Source of the DNA: a virus
Length of the DNA: 22,617 nt
Virus record (IMG/VR): IMGVR_UViG_3300034418_000930
Location: 1-22,617 of that record
Reading direction: 5' to 3' (one strand)
Part shown: piece after piece, positions 2-14,627 of the stretch
Numbering within the stretch: position 1 is the stretch's first letter
Layout of the letters: every line of letters begins with the position of its first letter
Program-made: the position numbers and the translations under genes
Notes under the pieces: generated by a model
Database searches by the model: none
Seen by the model: the letters and a program-made list of their open reading frames with translations, nothing else
Told to the model about the DNA's origin: nothing

Positions 2-1324
2 CGATTTGGTTCCGGTGGAGTAGAAAAAGGCAAGCTGTCGGTAGACACAAGCAGTAACATGGCGTTTGAAACTGGCGGCTCAGAACGCATGCGCATCGAC
101 TCTAGCGGGGCGCTTATTCTTTCTGGCAATGGAGGAAGCACTACTAACTCAGTAGACATATCCTACAATGGCACAAGCGGTCAAGGTTCTTTTAATGCCG
201 ACTCTGGCACTGGAAATACTTTCTTGACATTTGGCACTTCTTCATCTGGTTCTTTGTCAGAAGCCATGCGCATCGACTCAAGCGGCAACGTGGGTATTGG
301 TGGGACAACCACTACAGGATGGGCTAATAAACAGCTAGTTCTTGACGCTGGTTCAAACACTTCTGCCGCATTTGTAATGGTAAATGATACAACGGGTAGA
401 GCAGCAACAGACGGTTCTGTAATTACTTTGTCAGGTTCAGACATGTATTTAATACAGCGTGAGTCTGCAAATATGATATTCCGAACTGCAAACACAGAAC
501 GCATGCGCATTGACTCAAGCGGCAATCTATTACATGGCACAACTAGCTCTTCAATATATAACGCAACAAGCGGAGATGGTGTAAATATCAAAGGCCAGCA
601 GGGTCAAATTATTATTGCTAAAAATGCTACTTCTACTGCCGACCCAGCACTTTGGCTTAACAACACAGGTGTTGATGGCGCTATTGCAACCTTTGCAAAA
701 GACGGCACCTCAGTCGGTAGTATTGGTGTTGCTGGTTCGCGTCCGTATTTGGCAAATAACGTCAACTTTGGCATCAAGCTAGATGACTTTGGAGGCGGGC
801 AACTTCAACCAGCCACAACCGCTGGTGCTGTACAAGACAACGCTTGTAGCCTTGGTGGCTCTAGCGCACGTTGGAAAGACCTCTACCTGTCAGGCGGTGT
901 CTACCTAGGCGGCACAGGTTCAGCCAATAAGCTAGACGACTATGAAGAAGGGACGTTTACTGCATCCTTGCGAGGAAGCACTGGCGAACCCGGAACATTG
1001 ATTACAACTACAGGTTATTACACAAAAATAGGTAGAGATGTTACTTATAACATTAGTTTTGAAAATGTTAATACAACAGGTTATTCAGGAGATGTATCTA
1101 TAGAAGGATTGCCGTTTAATAACGGGTTTGGTCGTCATATGGGCACCGTTGGTGTTTATTCATTGGCAACTTGGACAGAACAAATTGTTGGTTCTGTAGA
1201 TTCAGGTTCAGCGGTGATTGTAATAAGGGACATTCGTTCAGGAACCTCATGGGCTTCCGCTGAACACAATGCAGGCAGTACACGGTATCTTTGGGTAGCA
1301 GGAACTTACATGACAACAGCCTAA
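2..1324 (+). CDS. Tail fibre / adhesin protein, 5' end outside window
   Basis: The reading frame is open from base 2, so the ATG at 59 is probably an internal Met and the true start lies upstream of the window. The protein carries three copies of an (E/A)RMRIDSSG(N/A) motif, coded near bases 81, 258 and 495. This type of repeat is common in tail fibres of marine phages. Further on, a segment with LGGSSARWKDLYLSGG (about base 850) leads to KLDDYEEGTFT (about 930) and a Gly/Thr-rich beta-type end domain with YYTKIGRDVTY. The LDDYEEGT...YTKIG arrangement is familiar from C-terminal domains of phage fibres. The expected role is host-receptor contact at the virion surface. Two small genes that often accompany fibre genes follow directly. 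The last 100 codons are more AT-rich than the repeat part, which suggests a mosaic. The fibre assignment is fairly sure; the receptor is unknown. Confidence 0.8.
   Translation, partial: RFGSGGVEKGKLSVDTSSNMAFETGGSERMRIDSSGALILSGNGGSTTNSVDISYNGTSGQGSFNADSGTGNTFLTFGTSSSGSLSEAMRIDSSGNVGIGGTTTTGWANKQLVLDAGSNTSAAFVMVNDTTGRAATDGSVITLSGSDMYLIQRESANMIFRTANTERMRIDSSGNLLHGTTSSSIYNATSGDGVNIKGQQGQIIIAKNATSTADPALWLNNTGVDGAIATFAKDGTSVGSIGVAGSRPYLANNVNFGIKLDDFGGGQLQPATTAGAVQDNACSLGGSSARWKDLYLSGGVYLGGTGSANKLDDYEEGTFTASLRGSTGEPGTLITTTGYYTKIGRDVTYNISFENVNTTGYSGDVSIEGLPFNNGFGRHMGTVGVYSLATWTEQIVGSVDSGSAVIVIRDIRSGTSWASAEHNAGSTRYLWVAGTYMTTA
81..527 (+). repeat. Three near-identical copies of the RMRIDSSG coding repeat
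   Basis: Copies begin at about 81, 258 and 495. Each contains a version of CAGAA(C/G)(G/C)CATGCGCAT followed by (C/T)GACTC(A/T)AGCGG. Spacing is 177 and 237 bp (59 and 79 codons), so the frame is kept. The nucleotide match is closer than the protein alone would require. Intervening segments differ. This looks like a modular fibre shaft in which segments can be exchanged by homologous recombination; that role is inferred. Confidence 0.75.
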
Positions 1325-1327
1325 TTA

Positions 1328-1347
1328 TCTCAAGTGGATTCTTGAGA
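1328..1347 (+). other. Short stem-loop after the tail-fibre gene
   Basis: TCTCAAG and CTTGAGA form a perfect 7-bp stem with a 6-nt loop (TGGATT), starting 4 nt after the fibre stop codon. No T-run follows, so it is not a classical intrinsic terminator. It could be an mRNA processing or 3'-end stabilising element, or chance. Confidence 0.35.
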
Positions 1348-1370
1348 CGGACTAAAACAGGAGAAAGACA

Positions 1371-1598
1371 ATGGCATTAACTAAAATCGTAACAGCAGAC
1401 AAAATTGAAGTAGTTACTACTCAGGACGAGGACGGCAATGACGTAACCTCTGTTCAAGTACGGACTGCCACCAAGGTACTAGAGGATGGCGCTGTAATTT
1501 CACAGTCTTACCATCGTCATGTAATCCAATCAGGTGACGACTACTCATCTGAACCCGCTAACGTACAGGCTATTTGTGTAGCCGCATTTGGAGACTAA
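1371..1598 (+). CDS. Small tail-fibre-associated hypothetical protein (75 aa)
   Basis: The start is supported by AGGAG at 1359-1363, 7 nt upstream of the ATG. The protein is soluble and acidic, with no signal peptide or membrane segment. It begins MALTKIVTADKIEVV and has a YHRHVIQSGDDYS motif near residue 43. Small proteins of this appearance often sit just after fibre genes in marine phages. A structural or chaperone role is possible by position, but the function is unknown. It is followed 2 nt later by the next gene, so the two are probably co-translated. Confidence 0.75.
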   Translation: MALTKIVTADKIEVVTTQDEDGNDVTSVQVRTATKVLEDGAVISQSYHRHVIQSGDDYSSEPANVQAICVAAFGD

Positions 1599-1600
1599 AA

Positions 1601-1921
1601 ATGGCTACATGGACTATTGCAACACTTGAACGAAACACTGACTCAGACCAAGGGGTAATTGTTGCCCACTGGCTAGTTACTGAAACAGAAACTGTGGGTA
1701 CTGGAGATGACGCTGTGACTTACAGTGCTACATCCTATGGGACTTGTGGGTTTACCCCAGACCCTTCTGCCGCTGATTACATTGCTTATGACGACCTAAC
1801 GGTAGCTGATGTCATTGGCTGGTGTCTGGGTGAGTTAGACGTTGAGGCTATTGAATCAGCCTTGACTGCTAACATTAATGAGCAGAAGAACCCTGCAACT
1901 GCTCACGGTGTGCCGTGGTAG
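1601..1921 (+). CDS. Small conserved phage protein next to tail fibre (106 aa)
   Basis: The frame is open from 1574, but the ATG at 1601 has GGAG at 1590-1593, 7 nt upstream, and gives the natural start MATWTIATLER. The protein includes YSATSYGTCGFTPDPSA around residues 45-60 and ends KNPATAHGVPW. It matches from memory a family of about 100 aa (DUF7936-type) found beside fibre genes in many marine and environmental phages. No membrane segment or enzymatic motif is seen. The role is unknown; a virion or tail-assembly role is suggested only by position. The stop codon abuts the promoter at 1922. Confidence 0.75.
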   Translation: MATWTIATLERNTDSDQGVIVAHWLVTETETVGTGDDAVTYSATSYGTCGFTPDPSAADYIAYDDLTVADVIGWCLGELDVEAIESALTANINEQKNPATAHGVPW

Positions 1922-1950
1922 TTGACAAACTACTAAAAGTATGCTATAAT
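1922..1950 (+). promoter_or_regulatory. Consensus sigma70 promoter with extended -10
   Basis: TTGACA (1922-1927), a 17-nt spacer and TATAAT (1945-1950) match the bacterial housekeeping consensus at every position. TG at 1942-1943 adds an extended -10. It fills the only sizeable gap in this region, directly after the stop codon of the preceding gene. It would drive the two short membrane proteins and probably the virion-protein block, using host RNA polymerase. The predicted start of transcription is about 1956-1958. Confidence 0.88.
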
Positions 1951-1955
1951 CTTTT

Positions 1956-1961
1956 AAGGAG
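1956..1961 (+). promoter_or_regulatory. Shine-Dalgarno AAGGAG for the 52-aa gene
   Basis: AAGGAG lies 6 nt before the ATG at 1968. It coincides with the expected transcription start of the adjacent promoter, so the mRNA may begin at or within the ribosome-binding site. Confidence 0.7.
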
Positions 1962-1967
1962 TTTAAG

Positions 1968-2126
1968 ATGGATTTAATTATTATTATTAATACTGTTACA
2001 ACAATTGTTACAGTAGCTTCTATTATTGCAGCTTCAACATCTACTCCTAAAGACGATGAGTGGATTGCAAAGCTTTATAAATTTATAGACTTGTTAGCTA
2101 TTAATATTGGTAAAGCAAAGCAGTAG
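1968..2126 (+). CDS. Short single-span membrane protein, holin-like (52 aa)
   Basis: The sequence reads MDLIIIINTVTTIVTVASII followed by AASTSTPKDDEW and a charged, partly amphipathic tail ending GKAKQ. Residues 3-22 form one hydrophobic span and the C-terminal 25 residues look helical and cationic. It has a strong promoter and Shine-Dalgarno of its own. Short proteins of this build occur upstream of virion-protein genes in marine podoviruses. It could be a small holin, a lysis regulator or an inner-membrane component. The function is not established. The next gene starts within 13 nt. Confidence 0.75.
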   Translation: MDLIIIINTVTTIVTVASIIAASTSTPKDDEWIAKLYKFIDLLAINIGKAKQ

Positions 2127-2138
2127 GTGAAACTAGAT

Positions 2139-2360
2139 ATGGCAGCAAAAACTGAGATGGAGTTAGCTCTAGAGGCTTTAGATAAAATTGCTCAACATGA
2201 GAAAGAATGTGGTGAGCGTTGGGGTGAAGCCACGGCTGAACTAAGACAGTTAAAAGAGTTAGCTATGTCTCATGCTGCTAGGTGGGAAAGGCTTTCATGG
2301 CTTGTTGTTACAGTAGTTATTACTGGAGCAGCTTCTGTTATTGTAGCACACTTAGGTTAA
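2139..2360 (+). CDS. Coiled-coil plus C-terminal membrane anchor protein (73 aa)
   Basis: The frame is open from a GTG at 2127, but the ATG at 2139 has AGGTGA at 2125-2130, 8 nt upstream, and is preferred (start MAAKTEMELALEALDK). Residues 1-50 are charged and helical. Residues about 52-71 (LSWLVVTVVITGAASVIVAH) form a single membrane span. This coil-then-anchor plan resembles XhlA-type haemolysin/holin-accessory proteins. With the preceding 52-aa membrane protein it may form a lysis or membrane-modifying pair, apart from the main lysis genes near 14 kb. Function is inferred only from architecture. Confidence 0.75.
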   Translation: MAAKTEMELALEALDKIAQHEKECGERWGEATAELRQLKELAMSHAARWERLSWLVVTVVITGAASVIVAHLG

Positions 2361-2363
2361 ATA

Positions 2364-5300
2364 ATGAGTAATAAAAGATCTAAAAGAAATAACAATAAAG
2401 TCTTGAAAGCACTTCGCCAGAAGAGAGCTAAGGGTGGTCGTACTAAAAAGTTTTATGGTGGTGTTGAAGGCATGGCAGGGCTTAATATCCCTAGCGAAGC
2501 TGAGATACAAGCTCGTATAAGACAGCAGCAAGGTACTAATCAAGAAACTCCTGCGCAGAAAGCCGCTAGAGAAGCTAAAGCAAAGGCTGATAGAGAAGCT
2601 AAAGCAGAAGCGGATAGACTTGAAGCTGAACAAAAAGCAGAAGCGGATAGACTTGAAGCTGAAAAAATAGCAAAACAAGGGAAAGTTAGTAGTGACACCC
2701 AAACTACTACTACTCCTACACCTACTACTACAACATCTTCTGTTAATGATCCTAAGCCTTTAAGAAGTGATTATGGTTCTAATCTAGGTGGACGTAGAGC
2801 AATTACTGCAAAAGAAGCCTATGAAAGAGATTTAGCGGCATGGGAAGCTAGACAAGCTGCTAATATAGACGTAACAGAAGGAATTGGTAGTGGGTCTCCT
2901 ACAGACATTGCCACCAGTACAGCACAACAAGAGGATACTATGAGTACAACACCTGATACTGGGGAGCCGCCACAAGTTAGCATAACGCCTCCTGAAAAGT
3001 TTGATATTCAAGAAGTAGAAGTTGAAGATGTTTCTTTAGAAGGTACTAAACTAGGCCCTGCTCAACAGATAAAGCAGCAAGAACAAGTGGGGGCGGCTAC
3101 AGTCGCTGCTGCACCTACGGTAACTACAACGGCCCCTACAGCTACTACAGCAGCTATGCCCACTACTGTAACTCCTGCAACTATGGAAGCTGCGAAAGCT
3201 GAAGATTTATCAGCCACTATAGCTGCACAAGGACGTGTAAGCGATGAAGCTATTGCTCGTGCTGAAGGCCCTACACTTACTGAAAGGGCTGTAGCGGCTG
3301 AAAGAGACACTGCACAAGAGCAGGCAGCTTTAGCAGAGGCGCAAGACTTTGAAATTTCTGAAGGTGCTTATGTAGATAAAGTAACTGGTAAGGTTACTGA
3401 GGTAGCTCCTACCCGTGAAGCAGAAGCTAAACAACGTGAAGCTATTACTGGGCAACCTGCAACAACTGGACAAGCTGCTAAGATTATAGATACTGTAGGA
3501 TATGAAGCAGCAAAAAGACGTACAGTTAAAGGAGAAGCAGCTAAAGGTGCAGCAGCTTCTATGATTGCAGAAGTAGGCGAACTACCTCCTGATATTACAG
3601 CAGCTATTGTAGAAGACCCTGCAACTGTTCAAGCACAAATTGATAACCAACCTGTAGAAGTACGTGCAGCAGTAGCAGCATTACCTACAGAAGCTCTTGT
3701 ATCTTCTCAAATGGAAACCCTTTTAGCAGGTATGGAGGATGGAAAGACTCCTACATGGGCTAGGCCAGCCGTAGCAGCTATTGAGCAAAAATTAGCCGCT
3801 AGAGGCATGTCAGCGTCTACTGTGGGTCGTGATGCTTTATTTAATGCAATAATACAGAGTGCCTTACCCATCGCTCAGAGCAATGCACAGGCTCTTCAGC
3901 AACGTGCTGCACAAAACTTATCTAATGAGCAGCAAGCTAATCTTACACAATCTACACAAGATATGCAGAGGCGTATGGCTAACTTAGCTAATCGTCAAAC
4001 AGCAGAATCACAGACTGCTGCAAATGCACAGGCTATGGCGACTCTTCAAAGTCAGTTCAGTCAACAAGCGGTCATGACTACAGCACAGCAGCAACAGCAA
4101 ACACGTATGCAAAATCTGCAAAATCAACAACAAGCCGCTGTACTAAATGCTCAAATGCAACAAGCTACCAATGCTCAAAATCTTGGAAATGAGCAGCAAA
4201 TGGAGTTAGCTAACTTACAGATTGCTGATGCTACGCAACGCGAAAACATGACTGCTGAAAATCAAAAGCGTCTTGCAGAAATGCAAGTGGCTGCTGACTT
4301 TCTTGCAAAGAATGCAGGTTTTAAGCAACAAATGGAGCTTGCTAATTTAAGTAATGATCAGCAGATGCGTTTAGCTAACTTGTCTGCTTTGAATCAAGCA
4401 AGTGCTGATAATCTTAGTGCAGCCCAGCAAACAGAGTTATCTAATTTAAATGCTCGTATGCAGACTAATTTACTAGAAAGTAAGTTGGCTCAAGAAATGG
4501 GGCTTGCTCAATTAAATGTTGATCAACAACGTGCTGTACAAAATGCAGCTATGGTTGCTAATGTAGACTTAACTAAGTTTAGTGCGGCTCAACAAGTAGA
4601 ACTAGCTAATAGTAAGTTTATGCAGTCTATGTCTATGGCAGACTTTAATGCCGAACAACAAGCAGCTATGCAGAACGCTACTATGATGGCTCAGATGGAT
4701 CTTGCAGCGGCTGATCAACGCACAAAGCTTGCTATTACTAATGCTCAAAGTTTCCTACAGATGGACATGACTAATCTTAGTAATGCTCAGCAGGCTACTA
4801 TACTTGATCAACAAATGCGGCAGCAACGTATCCTTTCAGATCAGTCAGCCACTAATGCAGCACGACAGTTTAATGCAGCTTCAGAAAATCAAACTAATCA
4901 GTTTATGGCTAGTATGCAAGCCAATATGAATCAGTTTAATGCTACGCAAACAAACGCTATGGCTCAGTTTAATGCGGCAGAAGCTAACAAAGCAAGTGCT
5001 ATAAATGCTGCTAATACTATTGAAATTAATAAAATTAATGCACAAATTAGAAACCAAGTTAATCAGTTTAATGCTTCTATTGAGTTCCAACGTGATCAAT
5101 GGAACGCTGCTAATGCACAGGCTGTTGCACAGTCAAATGTAGAGTGGCGTAGAAGGGCTAATACTATTGATACAGCAGCCCAGAATGCAGCTAATCAACA
5201 AAATGCTCAAATGGCATTTAATTTATCAAGTGCAGAGCAAGAGTTTTTGTGGCAAAACTTACGAGATGAAGCTGCTTATATCAGAACTGCTTATGAAAAT

Positions 5301-5417
5301 GAAGAGCAACGTAAGACTGTTATGTATTCTACAGCCCTTCAAAATGAAGCAGCGGCTGGTAAAGGTTCTAGTACAACAAGTACATTAATGACGTTAATTG
5401 CTAATATATTTAAGTAG
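2364..5417 (+). CDS. Large Q/N/A-rich virion protein with 11-residue repeats (1017 aa)
   Basis: This is probably a structural or internal virion protein. The basic N-terminus (residues 1-40) contains RAKGGRTKKFYGGVEG. An Ala/Glu/Lys helix follows (about 62-104), containing a tandem 11-residue repeat. Two Thr/Pro/Ala-rich linkers lie at about 112-126 and 246-273. A mixed region follows, then a very long Gln/Asn/Ala/Met-rich helical region at about 505-965. There, QQ pairs fall at residues 523, 611, 655, 666, 688, 721, 743, 765 and 809, all separated by multiples of 11. No enzymatic motif or signal peptide is seen. It stands first in a block of five large co-directional genes that look like ejected or internal proteins. 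It may form a long rod or core, or line the ejection path. The exact role is unknown. Confidence 0.8.
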   Translation: MSNKRSKRNNNKVLKALRQKRAKGGRTKKFYGGVEGMAGLNIPSEAEIQARIRQQQGTNQETPAQKAAREAKAKADREAKAEADRLEAEQKAEADRLEAEKIAKQGKVSSDTQTTTTPTPTTTTSSVNDPKPLRSDYGSNLGGRRAITAKEAYERDLAAWEARQAANIDVTEGIGSGSPTDIATSTAQQEDTMSTTPDTGEPPQVSITPPEKFDIQEVEVEDVSLEGTKLGPAQQIKQQEQVGAATVAAAPTVTTTAPTATTAAMPTTVTPATMEAAKAEDLSATIAAQGRVSDEAIARAEGPTLTERAVAAERDTAQEQAALAEAQDFEISEGAYVDKVTGKVTEVAPTREAEAKQREAITGQPATTGQAAKIIDTVGYEAAKRRTVKGEAAKGAAASMIAEVGELPPDITAAIVEDPATVQAQIDNQPVEVRAAVAALPTEALVSSQMETLLAGMEDGKTPTWARPAVAAIEQKLAARGMSASTVGRDALFNAIIQSALPIAQSNAQALQQRAAQNLSNEQQANLTQSTQDMQRRMANLANRQTAESQTAANAQAMATLQSQFSQQAVMTTAQQQQQTRMQNLQNQQQAAVLNAQMQQATNAQNLGNEQQMELANLQIADATQRENMTAENQKRLAEMQVAADFLAKNAGFKQQMELANLSNDQQMRLANLSALNQASADNLSAAQQTELSNLNARMQTNLLESKLAQEMGLAQLNVDQQRAVQNAAMVANVDLTKFSAAQQVELANSKFMQSMSMADFNAEQQAAMQNATMMAQMDLAAADQRTKLAITNAQSFLQMDMTNLSNAQQATILDQQMRQQRILSDQSATNAARQFNAASENQTNQFMASMQANMNQFNATQTNAMAQFNAAEANKASAINAANTIEINKINAQIRNQVNQFNASIEFQRDQWNAANAQAVAQSNVEWRRRANTIDTAAQNAANQQNAQMAFNLSSAEQEFLWQNLRDEAAYIRTAYENEEQRKTVMYSTALQNEAAAGKGSSTTSTLMTLIANIFK
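2601..2663 (+). repeat. Tandem 33-bp direct repeat inside the 1017-aa gene
   Basis: A perfect 30-bp sequence occurs at 2601-2630 and again at 2634-2663, an offset of 33 bp or 11 codons. The unit encodes KAEADRLEAE, and a degenerate copy lies just upstream (about 2566-2600). It probably arose by slippage or unequal recombination and extends a charged helix. Confidence 0.9.
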
Positions 5418-5425
5418 GAAACACT

Positions 5426-6634
5426 ATGGGATTTTTTAGTAAAATATTTAAAGGTGTCAAAAAGGTCTTTAAAAAGGTTGGTAAGGGCATTAAAAGTGTA
5501 TTTAAAAAAGTCGGTAAGTTTATGGGTAAGATTGGTATTGTAGGCCAGATTGCTCTTAGCTTTTTGCTTCCGGGGGTAGGCGCTTTAATCGGTAAAGCTG
5601 CGGGGGCTATGATGGCCTCTAGTAGTGCTATTGTAAGTGGTGCTGGTAGTTTTTTAAATGCTGCTGTAAATATAGGATCTAAGGCTGGCTCACTTGTTAA
5701 AAGTGTGGGTAAAGGTGTTTTAGATGTAGTAGGAAAAACTGTAGGTACTGCTATAAATCAAATTCCGGGAGCCGGTGATTTTCTTTACAAAGTAACTTCT
5801 GGTAAAATTGACATTACTCAAATGGAAAATTTTACAGGCCCTAACGGTATCATGGCTACTGCTCAAAATGCTATTACAGATGTAGCAGCTAAAGGTAAAG
5901 ATTTATTTTCTATGGATACTCTTACAAAAGAAAATGTATTTTCCCAACAAGCTAAAATATCAAAAGGACTTGAAAAATATGCTAAGCCACTTACTGAAGC
6001 AACGGTAGAAGTTTCTCCTGATGAGTTTGCGGAAAGAATAACCGCAGGGGAGTCTCCAATGCAGGCCAGTATTCCAAAACCAGAAGCACTAGCAGAAATA
6101 AAAGCACCTACTTCTTTTGAAGAGGGATTTGCTCTATCTCCTGAGGATGCGACAGCAAGAAGTTTGTCTACAGGCCAAGCAGACTACTTTGGAATACAAC
6201 CGCAACAACCAGCTTCTTTGTTGTCTGCTCCTGAAGTACCTACTTTAAGTGCAGAGCAACTAGCAAGTGGTTACGAGTACACAGCTACAGGAGTTACGAC
6301 ACCGCCTCAAACACTTACTGATAAATTTTTAGGCACCGAAGTAGGCCAAACGGTACAAGCTAAGGCTACAGAAGCTGCTGGTAAACTCACCAAAGCCAAT
6401 GTAATTAGTGCTATTGGTAAAACTTATGGGCAACAGGGAGAAGCTGTGAGTGGCGGGAGCTATACTTCTTTTGATATTCCTGAAATGGAACAATTTGGGA
6501 TGGCTGCTACAGTAGCTGATCAAACACAACGAAGGATTAATAGAACTCAAATTTCAAACTTTGGTAATACAGTTGATCCACTATATACGCCCCAATCTAG
6601 TTGGGGTAAAACTCTTGCGGAGCTTACAGCATAA
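5426..6634 (+). CDS. Virion protein with cationic amphipathic N-terminus (402 aa)
   Basis: The start has AGGA about 8 nt upstream. Residues 1-36 repeat short Phe/Val-Lys-Lys units (FFSKIFKGVKKVFKKVGKG, then SVFKKVGKFMGK). This is strongly cationic and amphipathic, like helical membrane-active peptides. A Gly/Ala-rich hydrophobic stretch follows (about 37-75, including IALSFLLPGVGALIG). The remainder is soluble and ends with SSWGKTLAELTA. Proteins with this kind of N-terminus are frequent in marine podoviruses, but their role is not established to my knowledge. A membrane-penetrating ejection protein is the most natural reading. Its stop codon overlaps the next start by 1 nt. Confidence 0.78.
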   Translation: MGFFSKIFKGVKKVFKKVGKGIKSVFKKVGKFMGKIGIVGQIALSFLLPGVGALIGKAAGAMMASSSAIVSGAGSFLNAAVNIGSKAGSLVKSVGKGVLDVVGKTVGTAINQIPGAGDFLYKVTSGKIDITQMENFTGPNGIMATAQNAITDVAAKGKDLFSMDTLTKENVFSQQAKISKGLEKYAKPLTEATVEVSPDEFAERITAGESPMQASIPKPEALAEIKAPTSFEEGFALSPEDATARSLSTGQADYFGIQPQQPASLLSAPEVPTLSAEQLASGYEYTATGVTTPPQTLTDKFLGTEVGQTVQAKATEAAGKLTKANVISAIGKTYGQQGEAVSGGSYTSFDIPEMEQFGMAATVADQTQRRINRTQISNFGNTVDPLYTPQSSWGKTLAELTA

Positions 6635-12000: not shown

Positions 12001-13868
12001 ACATTGTAAGTTTCTTCGGTAAAAAAGTACCTTTATACGGCGCAGGCAGGACGATTGAGCGCACATTTGATGTTGAGTTTATGGATGAGTATAACAAAAA
12101 TCTTAAAGAACTCAATGAAAAATTTGAGGAGGCTGTTGTACCCGAAAGATCCAGAAAGCCTTTTATGTATGCAGCAGGCGGTGTCGTTAAGAATGTACCT
12201 AATGTGCCCGAAGAGCCTGATCAGCGTATTGATAAAATAACAGGCCGTCCCTACGACAAGCAAGCTGGCGAAGCCTTTGTAGATAACGAAGAAGATCCTT
12301 TGGCTAGGCTTGGATTGGTTGTCGGCGGTCTTGCAAAGCCCGTTGCAAAAGTTGCTAGGACTGTTACAGATGAGATAGCTGATCTGATTAAAAGTTATTC
12401 TAGTAAAGACGCAGATCCCGAATCAATTAAAAAGGCTGCTAACGATATAGTAGATCTTCAGATTGGTCAAGATGATTATGAAATTGAGCAAATAAGAAAG
12501 TCTCTAGAGCGTACATCTTTTACAGACTACGATGAGTATGTTAACGAGCCTGTAGAAGAAGTACTAGATAAATATCGTCTACGTGAAACAGAAGAAGAAT
12601 CTTTTATTCAGACTCAGGGGCAGTTTAGAAATACTGATGAGATACTATTAGAGGATGATTTTGTTCCTGATTTAGATAAGGATGTAGGCGAAGCGGGTAT
12701 TAGCCTAAGTAGAATTCGTGAGGCTAACGATCCTATTTCACAAAAAACCTCAGGCATTTTAAACAGATTAATTCAAAAAATGCCTAGGGTTAGTAGGTCT
12801 GCTGATCCTGTTGTAGAGGCAGATCCTGAAGTACGACAAGCAAACATAGATAGAATATTAGAAGAGTCTGTTGTAAAAACGCCTGTTTATCGTGCTACAG
12901 GGCATGGCGTGGATACTGACTTTGATGTTGGTTTTACACTGGCTAATGAAATATCTCCGCACTTTGGTACAAAGGGCCAAGCAGATGATTTAGCAATTAG
13001 ACGATATTTTGATTACGAGATAGGCTATACCGAAAAAGTACCAGCAGAACTTCTTTATAATGCAGGAGCTAAGATGCCCGGAAAGACTCCTTCTATGATT
13101 AAAGGTTATTTATATATAAAGAACCCTATCACCATTGAGTCTGACTTTGGAGTGTGGAAGGCAGAGGAGATTTTGCAAGATAGAGAGCAAGTTGATACTT
13201 TGATTGACAGCATGGTTAAAAGTTCTAATGGTAAATTAAAAGAAAAAGAACTTCGAGCAGAGTTGTTTGATACTACATCAAAGAGCTTAAAAGAATATAA
13301 AGAAGTAATTGATAGTTATGATACTAATATTCCAGAAATTGAATTGCAAATAAGAATTAGGCGTTATGATGTAAATGATAAACTTAGGGCATTCTTAAAA
13401 TCAAAAGGCTTTGATGGTATTAAATACCTTAATAAGTTTGAAGACAAAGGTGCGAAAGAGTTTTCATATATTCCATTTGAGCCTCAACAATTCAAAGCTG
13501 TCTTTGCAGAAAACTTTGATTTAGAAGATCCTAGAGTCTATAAGGCAGAGGGTGGTGTAGCACGTGCCGATATGCGTAGGTCTGATGGGTCTGTTAAGTC
13601 AGCACAGGGTTTCTTAGGGCCTGTTGAGAACACAGTACAGGGCGGCACTATGACTGAAGTTTCTATAGGGACAGAGATTAATGGAAAGAAAATGGAAATA
13701 CCTACAATGGTGCCTACACTTACAGAGGATGAGGTTAAGACGCTATCATCTATGAAGCTGGAGGGTAATGCTAAAAACATTCCTGAGTCTATTATTATGA
13801 AGGCCAAGGAACATGCCCGTATGCGCTTAGAGCAGGGCAAGAGTCCATTTTATCAGGACGGTGAATGA
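9045..13868 (+). CDS. Giant internal virion protein with C-terminal ADP-ribosyltransferase-like domain (1607 aa)
   Basis: The start has AAGGA about 8 nt upstream. Residues 1-1040 are a mainly helical body with one hydrophobic glycine/alanine stretch at about 214-234 (ALAGAALVGSVAG) and an aromatic segment near 855-880 (ILFQFMGYPAAFTNTVL). A linker starting AAGGVVKNVP (about 1043) leads through an acidic region to residues 1278-1490. That stretch resembles the ADP-ribosyltransferase domain of phage polyvalent proteins: VYRATGHG (R1283), SPHFGTKGQADD (H1306), YLYIKNPI, FDGIKYL and KEFSYIPFEPQQFKAVF (E1472). The last 100 residues (RRSDGSVKSAQGFLGP ... ARMRLEQGKSPF) are a module seen in many phages at protein ends. 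It is probably packaged and ejected into the host. The body assignment is by context; the transferase call is from motif recognition only. Confidence 0.75.
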   Translation: MIFDDTFKKEEDVKGPVFVKPSIDSTAMPTTTNAWRNDPRVQAAAERYTYALSKLDNTFDPGSYFDDNRDIVEVLRDEDNRIATIINRAGNLDELSPQAKKDYNFLRSTWQNTNPSNFDEWTDYAADLSTDIFADPLNALGLIFTGGSSNIAAQTAGKEGLKQVLKRAAVSDSTKAQTIRGAIASGAYGTLHEDQLQRAEMATGLSSDYQIARTATVGGVSALAGAALVGSVAGTSKFFKNRAKERMDADEQFRKANSEGPEGIDPNVQQAVDDNIEILKRSSRTDVSADVTPGRASVVIDQEPIQSFSENVSKKAGGGERTTQEVADTVNQVMRDSANKPLDNLGRRVGFEVNRIINRYGAKMFFKPVSVVESFSKFSQTANDLMKKFRYDAGRNVWGDRDYDAQDFFEVYKETAGRYFVRAKVAMEPLALNMRGKLSEVANNNIIKTLRGAEPAGEAVGTIAGELREILDDIAGRLLEEGFIDEAATNYVPRMWSRSAIEKNKETFISKLMDANEVNSVEEGLRVVEEMLDKKNQLDGGSSGGNAFFFKRQFNLIEDNEFEEFLNNDIVDVMNTYIFQSSKQLAKKQVFGVRNLKEYRKRYVDNIRAEMRKAGKTLTVGDEEDLINIWKLTTGEDVSRFESSKVQGFIDAYSVANRLAYLPLATLSSVTEVFINVGKAGVTKTLKGLAKSTDAAQDTIQKQLKEKLGKQGLTENEIWKEMNKFGLALDTAMSDLADRLAGDGLSSELARKVNNNFFRLNFLDQWTKSVQMMSYVTGKTLITDNLRAIAKNKGLPDSRRITRLKDELKELNIDIEGGLNWVETGNKDFEEVIQRGASRYANEVILNPSAESGLKPMWMANPQSSILFQFMGYPAAFTNTVLKNAAKGLLRDPIQNAPRIVPAALIMTEMARWTNYARSGGESERFKDREQIYTDAVVRWGGNGLIADMMGRSRKAMEIYQDPMAGVAGLFGPVGQDLYTLVRRGDIVSFFGKKVPLYGAGRTIERTFDVEFMDEYNKNLKELNEKFEEAVVPERSRKPFMYAAGGVVKNVPNVPEEPDQRIDKITGRPYDKQAGEAFVDNEEDPLARLGLVVGGLAKPVAKVARTVTDEIADLIKSYSSKDADPESIKKAANDIVDLQIGQDDYEIEQIRKSLERTSFTDYDEYVNEPVEEVLDKYRLRETEEESFIQTQGQFRNTDEILLEDDFVPDLDKDVGEAGISLSRIREANDPISQKTSGILNRLIQKMPRVSRSADPVVEADPEVRQANIDRILEESVVKTPVYRATGHGVDTDFDVGFTLANEISPHFGTKGQADDLAIRRYFDYEIGYTEKVPAELLYNAGAKMPGKTPSMIKGYLYIKNPITIESDFGVWKAEEILQDREQVDTLIDSMVKSSNGKLKEKELRAELFDTTSKSLKEYKEVIDSYDTNIPEIELQIRIRRYDVNDKLRAFLKSKGFDGIKYLNKFEDKGAKEFSYIPFEPQQFKAVFAENFDLEDPRVYKAEGGVARADMRRSDGSVKSAQGFLGPVENTVQGGTMTEVSIGTEINGKKMEIPTMVPTLTEDEVKTLSSMKLEGNAKNIPESIIMKAKEHARMRLEQGKSPFYQDGE

Positions 13869-14236
13869 TGTATAAGTATTTCACAGAAGAAGAGTTAGAA
13901 TGTAAGCACTGCCAAGCCAAGGGTATAGACCCTATGTTCATGAAGAAGGTGGATGCCTTGCGTGAAAAGATGGGATTTAGCTTTCCTGTAACCTCTGCAT
14001 ACCGCTGTAAAGACCACCCCATAGAGGCCCGTAAAGCCTCTCCGGGGGCACATGCGTCAGGGAGGGCCATAGATATAGGGGTATCCCATGAAAGGGCTTA
14101 CAGGCTCGTACAGGGCGCTGTAGAGGCAGGCTTTAGTGGTATTGGTGTTAGTCAGAAGGGTGGTGTAAGGTTTATACACCTTGATGACCTTGAAGACTCT
14201 GAAGGCCGTCCAAGACCACACATCTGGAGTTATTAA
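13865..14236 (+). CDS. Peptidase M15 family endolysin (123 aa)
   Basis: This is a D-Ala-D-Ala-type zinc peptidase of the M15_3 kind, expected to cleave peptidoglycan stem peptides during lysis. The metal-binding pattern is visible: GAHASGRAIDIG gives H63 and D70, and RFIHLDD gives H105 and D107. The N-terminal YFTEEELECKHC and the SAYRC segment near residue 44 are typical. Full length for the family. There is no signal peptide, so export must depend on the holin encoded next. The start is ATGATG overlapping the upstream TGA; either Met is possible. Confidence 0.88.
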   Translation: MMYKYFTEEELECKHCQAKGIDPMFMKKVDALREKMGFSFPVTSAYRCKDHPIEARKASPGAHASGRAIDIGVSHERAYRLVQGAVEAGFSGIGVSQKGGVRFIHLDDLEDSEGRPRPHIWSY

Positions 14237-14237
14237 T

Positions 14238-14627
14238 ATGAGTATTGTAGCAAGCTTAGTAGGCCCTGTATCTGGACTACTTGATAAGTTTATTGAAGAC
14301 AAGGATCAGAAGAATGCTTTGGCCCATGAGATTGCTACCATGTCTGAGAAACATGCACAGGAGTTAGCTAAGGGTCAACTTGAGGTTAACAAAACTGAAG
14401 CAGCACACTCTAGTATCTTTGTAAGCGGCTGGAGGCCCTTCATTGGCTGGACATGTGGGCTGGGTATGTTTGGTAACTTCATTACAATTCCATTTTCTAA
14501 CTTTGTGCTGGCCCTAGTAGGCGTAGATATTTTTATACCTCTAGTACCTTTAGAGACTATGATGCCAGTACTTATGGGTATGCTAGGCTTGGGTGCAATG
14601 AGGAGCTACGAGAAGACCCGGAAATGA
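14238..14627 (+). CDS. Holin, GTA 3TM type (129 aa)
   Basis: The frame is open from 14181, but the ATG at 14238 has GGAG at 14226-14229, 8 nt upstream, and lies just after the peptidase stop. The product starts MSIVASLVGPVSGLLDKF. It has a charged helical middle (KGQLEVNKTEAAHSS) and then IFVSGWRPFIGWTCGLGM, the signature of the GTA_holin_3TM family. Two further hydrophobic spans follow, ending in a short basic tail (YEKTRK). It would permeabilise the inner membrane and release the M15 endolysin. Its neighbours and order match standard phage lysis modules. Confidence 0.88.
   Translation: MSIVASLVGPVSGLLDKFIEDKDQKNALAHEIATMSEKHAQELAKGQLEVNKTEAAHSSIFVSGWRPFIGWTCGLGMFGNFITIPFSNFVLALVGVDIFIPLVPLETMMPVLMGMLGLGAMRSYEKTRK

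Follow-up and report, generated by a model that had tools for sequence, protein, structure and literature searches.

A long repeat protein opens a five-gene cassette

The DNA analysed here, called the window throughout, is a viral stretch of 22,617 nucleotides (IMG/VR record IMGVR_UViG_3300034418_000930). It encodes a 1017-aa protein, referred to below as the rod protein, whose gene opens a cassette of five genes (Table 1). The order of the cassette is kept in most of the complete neighbourhoods around related genes, where the proteins encoded after the rod gene measure about 250–500 aa (shorter or missing in some), about 165–240 aa and about 300–1040 aa, followed by a giant protein of 817–1893 aa. 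The promoter match upstream has the form TTGACA-17-TATAAT with a TG extended -10 element and is the sole 12/12 match in the scanned interval 1200–6000.

Table 1. Features of the rod gene, its cassette and the upstream region in the window.
Feature	Position	Strand	Basis
Sigma-70 promoter consensus, 12/12 perfect	1922..1950	+	Pattern match only; upstream of cassette
Hendecad-rod protein gene, 1017 aa	2364..5417	+	ORF; relatives in 26 phage records and at least about 100 viral contigs
Rod protein, N-terminal part, residues 1–439	2364..3680	+	Composition and alignment
Rod protein, conserved helical cap, residues 440–511	3681..3896	+	Three alignments; predicted short helices
Rod protein, main rod (segment A–B), residues 502–830	3867..4853	+	Autocorrelation, register table, length rule
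Rod protein, second rod segment (B–C), QFNA type, residues 831–924	4854..5135	+	Period and length rule
Rod protein, conserved C-terminal helices (SNVxWRR ... LWQxLRDxA) and variable tail	5136..5414	+	
Cassette gene 2, 402 aa	5426..6634	+	ORF; weak tape-measure profile match
Cassette gene 3, 176 aa	6634..7164	+	Size conserved, about 165–240 aa in relatives
Cassette gene 4, 622 aa	7166..9034	+	ORF; neighbourhood comparison
Cassette gene 5, giant, 1607 aa	9045..13868	+	phrog_7348, E 4.9e-181

By composition, the N-terminal part of the rod protein has a basic start followed by an A/T/E/P-rich low-complexity region and is probably disordered; among relatives it is highly variable in length, and its length modulo 11 falls into all classes. 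This region also contains a 33-bp tandem repeat (2601–2672, 2.2 copies, 94% match) that lies outside the rod and encodes KAEADRLEAEQ-type 11-mers. The alignments of the cap that follows share the motifs P-x-W-A, RG-[LM]-S-x-S and SALPIAQ. At the other end, the rod proteins of the roseophages CRP-738 (L037) and CRP-3 (L038) are extended by a self-cleaving Peptidase_S74 chaperone domain, which is absent from the protein of the window.

The giant product of the last cassette gene matches LUZ24 gp50, annotated as 'virion structural protein' (tblastn E 4e-11). Because the cassette ends in this LUZ24-gp50-like virion protein, an ejection role is likely. As for podovirus ejection proteins, the rod gene lies in a cluster of internal-protein genes that adjoins virion protein genes, and from this neighbourhood we infer that the rod protein is present in the virion; a literature search for virion proteomics of the HMO-2011-type group found nothing relevant. 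The start of cassette gene 2 (5426–5600) encodes a repeated Lys-rich amphipathic stretch (MGFFSKIFKGVKKVFKKVGKGIKSVFKKVGK) and then a hydrophobic segment, both conserved in relatives, so that its N-terminus looks membrane-active. In phage HTVC115P, gp46 (L022:16570-17019), encoded between the rod gene and cassette gene 2, is a protein of the HlyC RTX-toxin lysine acyltransferase family (Pfam E 1e-15), and three further loci (L102, L112, L124) have relatives of it close to the rod gene. Such a protein might acylate the Lys-rich N-terminus of the cassette gene 2 product. After the cassette (13865–14627), the window carries a Peptidase_M15 gene (E 6e-12), which probably serves lysis, and then a gene for a GTA-type holin with three transmembrane segments (E 2e-19).

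The rod protein has a true 11-residue period

The original prediction had described a strict hendecad periodicity, based on QQ pairs at residues 523, 611, 655, 666, 688, 721, 743, 765 and 809 and on the DNA 11-mer CAGTTTAATGC at 4866, 4932, 4965 and 5064. All these positions are exact, and the 11-mer encodes QFNA at residues 835, 857, 868 and 901. The QQ list was selective, the whole protein having 26 QQ starts; one phase modulo 11 holds 14 of the 20 that lie between residues 502 and 830. We scored the identity autocorrelation of residues 500–960 against 1000 shuffles and obtained z = 10.4 at lag 44, 9.7 at lag 22, 7.5 at lag 11, 7.3 at lag 55 and 6.6 at lag 33, while the next-best lag reached only 3.0. 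Residues 1–500 show a weak trace at most (z 3.0 at lag 11). The unbroken repeat covers residues ~502–966, and the regularity is real and exceeds what had been claimed for it.

The rod family belongs to HMO-2011-type podoviruses

The rod protein has no match among Pfam or PHROG families. A protein search of phage genomes found relatives in 26 records. Most of these come from phages of the HMO-2011 type or phages related to them, including HTVC103P, 104P and 115P, roseophages of the CRP series, HMO-2011, Vibrio phage CHOED, Aeromonas MQM1, Pseudoalteromonas Slicky01, Sinorhizobium phiM6 and Rhizobium RHph_N3_19. In IMG/VR, a single-protein query returned 20 loci and an alignment query at least 79, with 565 stretches encoding a relative; a scan of metagenome-assembled genomes for the conserved patterns added five loci, presumably on phage contigs. 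The family belongs to the HMO-2011-type podoviruses, and the phage of the window is probably a short-tailed marine podovirus. Electron microscopy shows short tails for isolates carrying the rod gene (CRP-1, -2, -3, -9 and -13; PMC6918029, PMC8528129), and the heads of related isolates, where measured, are about 70 nm across (PMC8528129); this morphology is that of the isolates rather than of the phage of the window.

Autocorrelation is strongest or near-strongest at multiples of 11 in most relatives examined; the most remote ones, e.g., phiM6 and RHph_N3_19, show the period weakly. In one relative (L012, 1208 aa), the period of 11 is joined by strong ones of 13 residues (z 8.5) and 26 residues (z 7.2).

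Rod length changes only by whole hendecads

To compare rod lengths we represented three conserved anchors as HMMs: A (SALPIAQ, window residue 502), B (NAARQFNA, 830) and C (SNVxWRR, 924). The A–B distance equals 9 modulo 11 in all 112 related loci, although it takes 14 distinct lengths from 64 to 768 aa. Likewise, the B–C distance, with seven values between 61 and 138, equals 6 modulo 11 in 114 of 114 loci, and the A–C distance equals 4 in 110 of 110. Anchor B sits inside the repeat and its placement could slip by whole units, which would not create the rule between A and C. As controls, the distances from start codon to anchor A and the lengths of the C-terminal tail each occupy all 11 classes. 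Mapped by parsimony onto a tree built from the anchor blocks, length changed about 32 times in A–B and about 11 times in B–C, every time by whole hendecads. Length changes other than multiples of 11 residues, named beforehand as evidence against a conserved period, were found in none of the more than 110 loci. We consider this whole-unit rule, which holds over lengths that differ roughly tenfold, a solid result.

A basic unit of 22 residues was rejected, as relatives are separated by odd numbers of hendecads. Many A–B lengths fit the series 108 + 110n (108, 218, 328, 438, 548, 658 and 768), and in long forms the identity at lag 110 is elevated, to 0.33 in the 768 class and up to 0.71 in one local stretch. 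These lengths and the raised identity indicate that long rods probably grew by copying blocks of ten hendecads. Six loci (L079, L082, L096, L085, L114 and L086) with A–B segments of 548–768 aa lengthen in such 110-residue blocks and show a 55-residue lag as well.

The rod is predicted to be a helix with two opposite seams

As the register holds without a slip in all relatives, we stacked their residues position by position. The ~30 hendecads of segment A–B in the window have Q at registers 0 and 10, L/M at 3, N at 5 and L/A at 6. The stacked relatives have 60% Q at register 0, 57% Q at 10 and 62% N at 5, with L/M at 3, L/A at 6 and A/M/V at 1, and their 25,823 pooled segment A–B residues contain no proline and 1.25% glycine. 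AlphaFold models the core of the window protein as helix throughout (mean pLDDT 58, low confidence) and a short relative as a continuous helix of 168 residues (mean pLDDT 63, best blocks 76–86); these models were used for secondary structure alone, being too weak for a fold search. The whole-hendecad steps, the lack of proline and the modelled helices support the original proposal of a continuous helix under selection with a period of 11 residues, and we treat the rod as a predicted helix below.

On a helical wheel, segment A–B displays two apolar stripes, at registers 1/4/8 and 3/6, lying about 179 degrees apart. Registers 0 and 7, on one side between the stripes, are 1% hydrophobic and 73–75% amide or hydroxyl, and charge is highest on the opposite face, at registers 2 and 9. 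The hydrophobicity power of the main rod is only 1.2–1.5 at 98 degrees per residue (random = 1) and 17–18 at the second harmonic, 163.6 degrees. A peak at 131 degrees is equally strong, because the Q at register 10 sits in the middle of a stripe. The main rod lacks the single buried 3-4-4 seam of a single-core hendecad coiled coil of the tetrabrachion type and has the two opposite seams instead. This pattern, without a single-face moment, favours lateral packing into a sheet or tube, of which the DNA-pilot tube of phiX174 H is an example. Segment B–C keeps an identical 11-residue register and has a power of 1.7–1.9 at 98 degrees; since it carries F at register 4 and Q at register 3, it probably packs differently from segment A–B.

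Between anchors A and C the rod of the window would measure about 63 nm if straight. The length of 69 nm given in the original prediction for 460 helical residues is correctly calculated and comes near the head size of related isolates (~70 nm). As a general rule the fit to the capsid fails, because the rods of relatives span 147–862 residues, or 22–129 nm if straight. Overall, the observation behind the original prediction is confirmed and its interpretation partly supported; of the structures it had offered, the lining of an ejection tube appears to be the best reading.

A possible DNA conduit and its alternatives

We tentatively favour, at somewhat less than an even chance, a model in which the rod protein leads an ejection cassette of five genes and its helices lie side by side as a sheet or tube that conducts DNA. 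Several copies of this internal virion (ejection) protein would be packaged, and on infection the long helices would align laterally through the two opposite hydrophobic seams. Each helix seems to need neighbours on two opposite sides, and the assembly would therefore be a single layer, open or closed. Segment A–B, with 5–69 hendecads, together with segment B–C would form this layer without twist, closing as a sheet or tube, with the Gln/Ser/Asn-rich face meeting the DNA and the opposite face bearing most of the charge. Only insertions and deletions of whole hendecads would keep the seams in register and be tolerated, because the pattern of contacts recurs exactly every 11 residues. The analysis demonstrates the 11-residue period, length changes by whole units, a register pattern with two seams, a syntenic cassette and a last gene homologous to one for a virion protein; the oligomer, the tube, the contact with DNA and the role in ejection we infer. 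The fit of the phiX174 H hendecads described below and the short tails of isolates that carry the rod gene speak for the model as well.

Several results weigh on this model. The seams, 179 degrees apart, correspond to a nearly flat sheet and count against a narrow ten-helix barrel, which calls for about 144 degrees; given this outcome of estimating helix number from the seam angle, we claim no oligomer number. Furthermore, rods of 422–862 residues (63–129 nm straight) far exceed a periplasm, and these lengths are a difficulty both for models with straight rods in the head and for models that merely span the periplasm. The missing sequence relation to the P22, T7 and LUZ24 counterparts, which also lack the period, counts against the model too, as do the low confidence of the AlphaFold models and the small size (33 residues) of the phiX174 comparison. 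A rather unlikely reading, in which short-tailed phages hold an undeployed 'internal tail', would have an amide-faced single-layer helical tube of 20–130 nm unfold into the envelope on infection, its length quantised in 1.65-nm hendecads and often growing by 110-residue blocks. If true, a podovirus would possess a tape-measure-like device tuned to the envelope of its host.

Among the alternatives to a DNA conduit, an external trimeric fibre, whisker or tail-needle shaft is unlikely but survives best. Here the protein would assemble into a parallel coiled coil of hendecads, and its length could vary freely, since the shaft merely holds its tip away from the particle. Peptidase_S74 domains are self-cleaving chaperones that act on homotrimers in tail fibres and spikes, and the rod proteins of CRP-738 and CRP-3 end in such a domain. 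Lengths of 22–129 nm would suit fibres, and the rod gene comes after tail-fibre-like genes. However, closing a trimer takes a single buried 3-4-4 seam, at odds with the two opposite seams of the main rod, and the rod gene heads an ejection-like cassette. Moreover, LUZ24 gp53, whose gene occupies a similar place in its cassette, has a core that matches a 'DNA ejection protein' profile, and the C-terminal end of that same profile matches the S74 tail of CRP-738.

Somewhat less probable is a tape-measure-like ruler that sets the length of a structure built along it, such as an internal core or a transient tail extension, without conducting DNA. Tape measure proteins of some siphophages are marked by a variable number of 11-residue units (PMC3271669), cassette gene 2 weakly matches tape-measure profiles, and growth in larger blocks (the 108 + 110n series and the lag-110 identity) fits a ruler too. 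Against it, the isolates carrying the rod gene have short tails, and inspection revealed no visible tie between rod length and the lengths of the neighbouring cassette proteins. We regard as improbable an internal core, i.e., a rod or sheet inside the head that has no channel role and serves to order the packaged DNA or to store other ejection proteins. The position of the gene in the cassette would agree with it, amide-rich and weakly charged helices could stack in layers, and window-type rods of ~63–69 nm are near head size, but relatives of 752–862 residues would extend to 113–129 nm straight and exceed heads of ~70 nm.

A beta-solenoid with 11-residue rungs is very improbable: an in/out pattern at positions 1, 3, 6 and 8 would give the same 4/11 and 5/11 Fourier peaks (131 and 163.6 degrees), but the helix-forming composition of Q, A, L and M, with zero proline and ~1% glycine, and the all-helix AlphaFold models speak against it. 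Periods of 11 and 22 residues are typical of apolipoprotein- and perilipin-type proteins and lags 22 and 44 are the strongest in the window protein, yet the membrane-lying amphipathic helix that the original prediction had listed is hardly credible given almost no power at 98 degrees and a strong second harmonic.

The DNA conduit stays our favoured, unproven mechanism. As the rods of more than 100 related phages change only by whole units, our results suggest that the rod is a modular part of the DNA-delivery machinery, one that would act in the manner of the rulers and DNA tubes known from other phages although its sequence is unrelated to theirs. Neither Pfam nor PHROGs has a name for the family, whose main rods differ about tenfold in length and follow the rule without exception. 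Its members thus offer natural length variants with which one could test what a helical rod of a phage measures or builds.

Comparison with known phage systems

Among known systems, the LUZ24 virion cassette gp53-gp52-gp51-gp50 has a comparable gene order and a last gene homologous to that of the 1607-aa protein; unlike the rod protein, LUZ24 gp53 is without a hendecad rod. The T7 gp14-gp15-gp16 and P22 gp7-gp20-gp16 clusters similarly run from small to giant, with the last protein the largest, and a review describes tunnel formation by ejection proteins of the T7/P22 type. None of the T7, P22 and LUZ24 counterparts has an 11-residue period. We also considered kinship of the rod family with LUZ24 gp53, T7 gp14 and P22 gp7, and of cassette genes 2–4 with P22, T7 and LUZ24 proteins; profile comparison gave no signal in either case.

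With 11-residue-repeat tape measure proteins of siphophages, the rod shares a variable number of 11-aa units (Belcaid 2011, PMC3271669). Those proteins, however, carry W (or F) as the marker residue where the rod has Q/N, and they set tail length in long-tailed phages, whereas the rod gene sits in a podovirus ejection-like cassette.

Sequence searches with the rod family against all solved PDB chains, including the DNA pilot protein H of phiX174, found nothing relevant. The H tube, which among single helical layers in phages has been studied best, is a decameric alpha-helical barrel formed by residues 151–271, with an interior of mostly N, Q and R (PMC7354561). Like the rod, H has 11/3 hendecads, with Q at registers 0 and 7, L/I at 3 and M/I at 6, and amides occupy hendecad positions that we take to face inward in H. 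Against the register profile of the rod, the best phase of three H hendecads (33 residues, PMC7354561) scored 10.5 bits and the next -16; compared with column-permuted controls this fit has p 0.027, a modest value from 33 residues only. H differs in having three hendecads where the rod has 30–40 and in belonging to an ssDNA microvirus, and the seams of the rod are closer to 180 degrees. We regard the resemblance as a likeness of design rather than as evidence of kinship.
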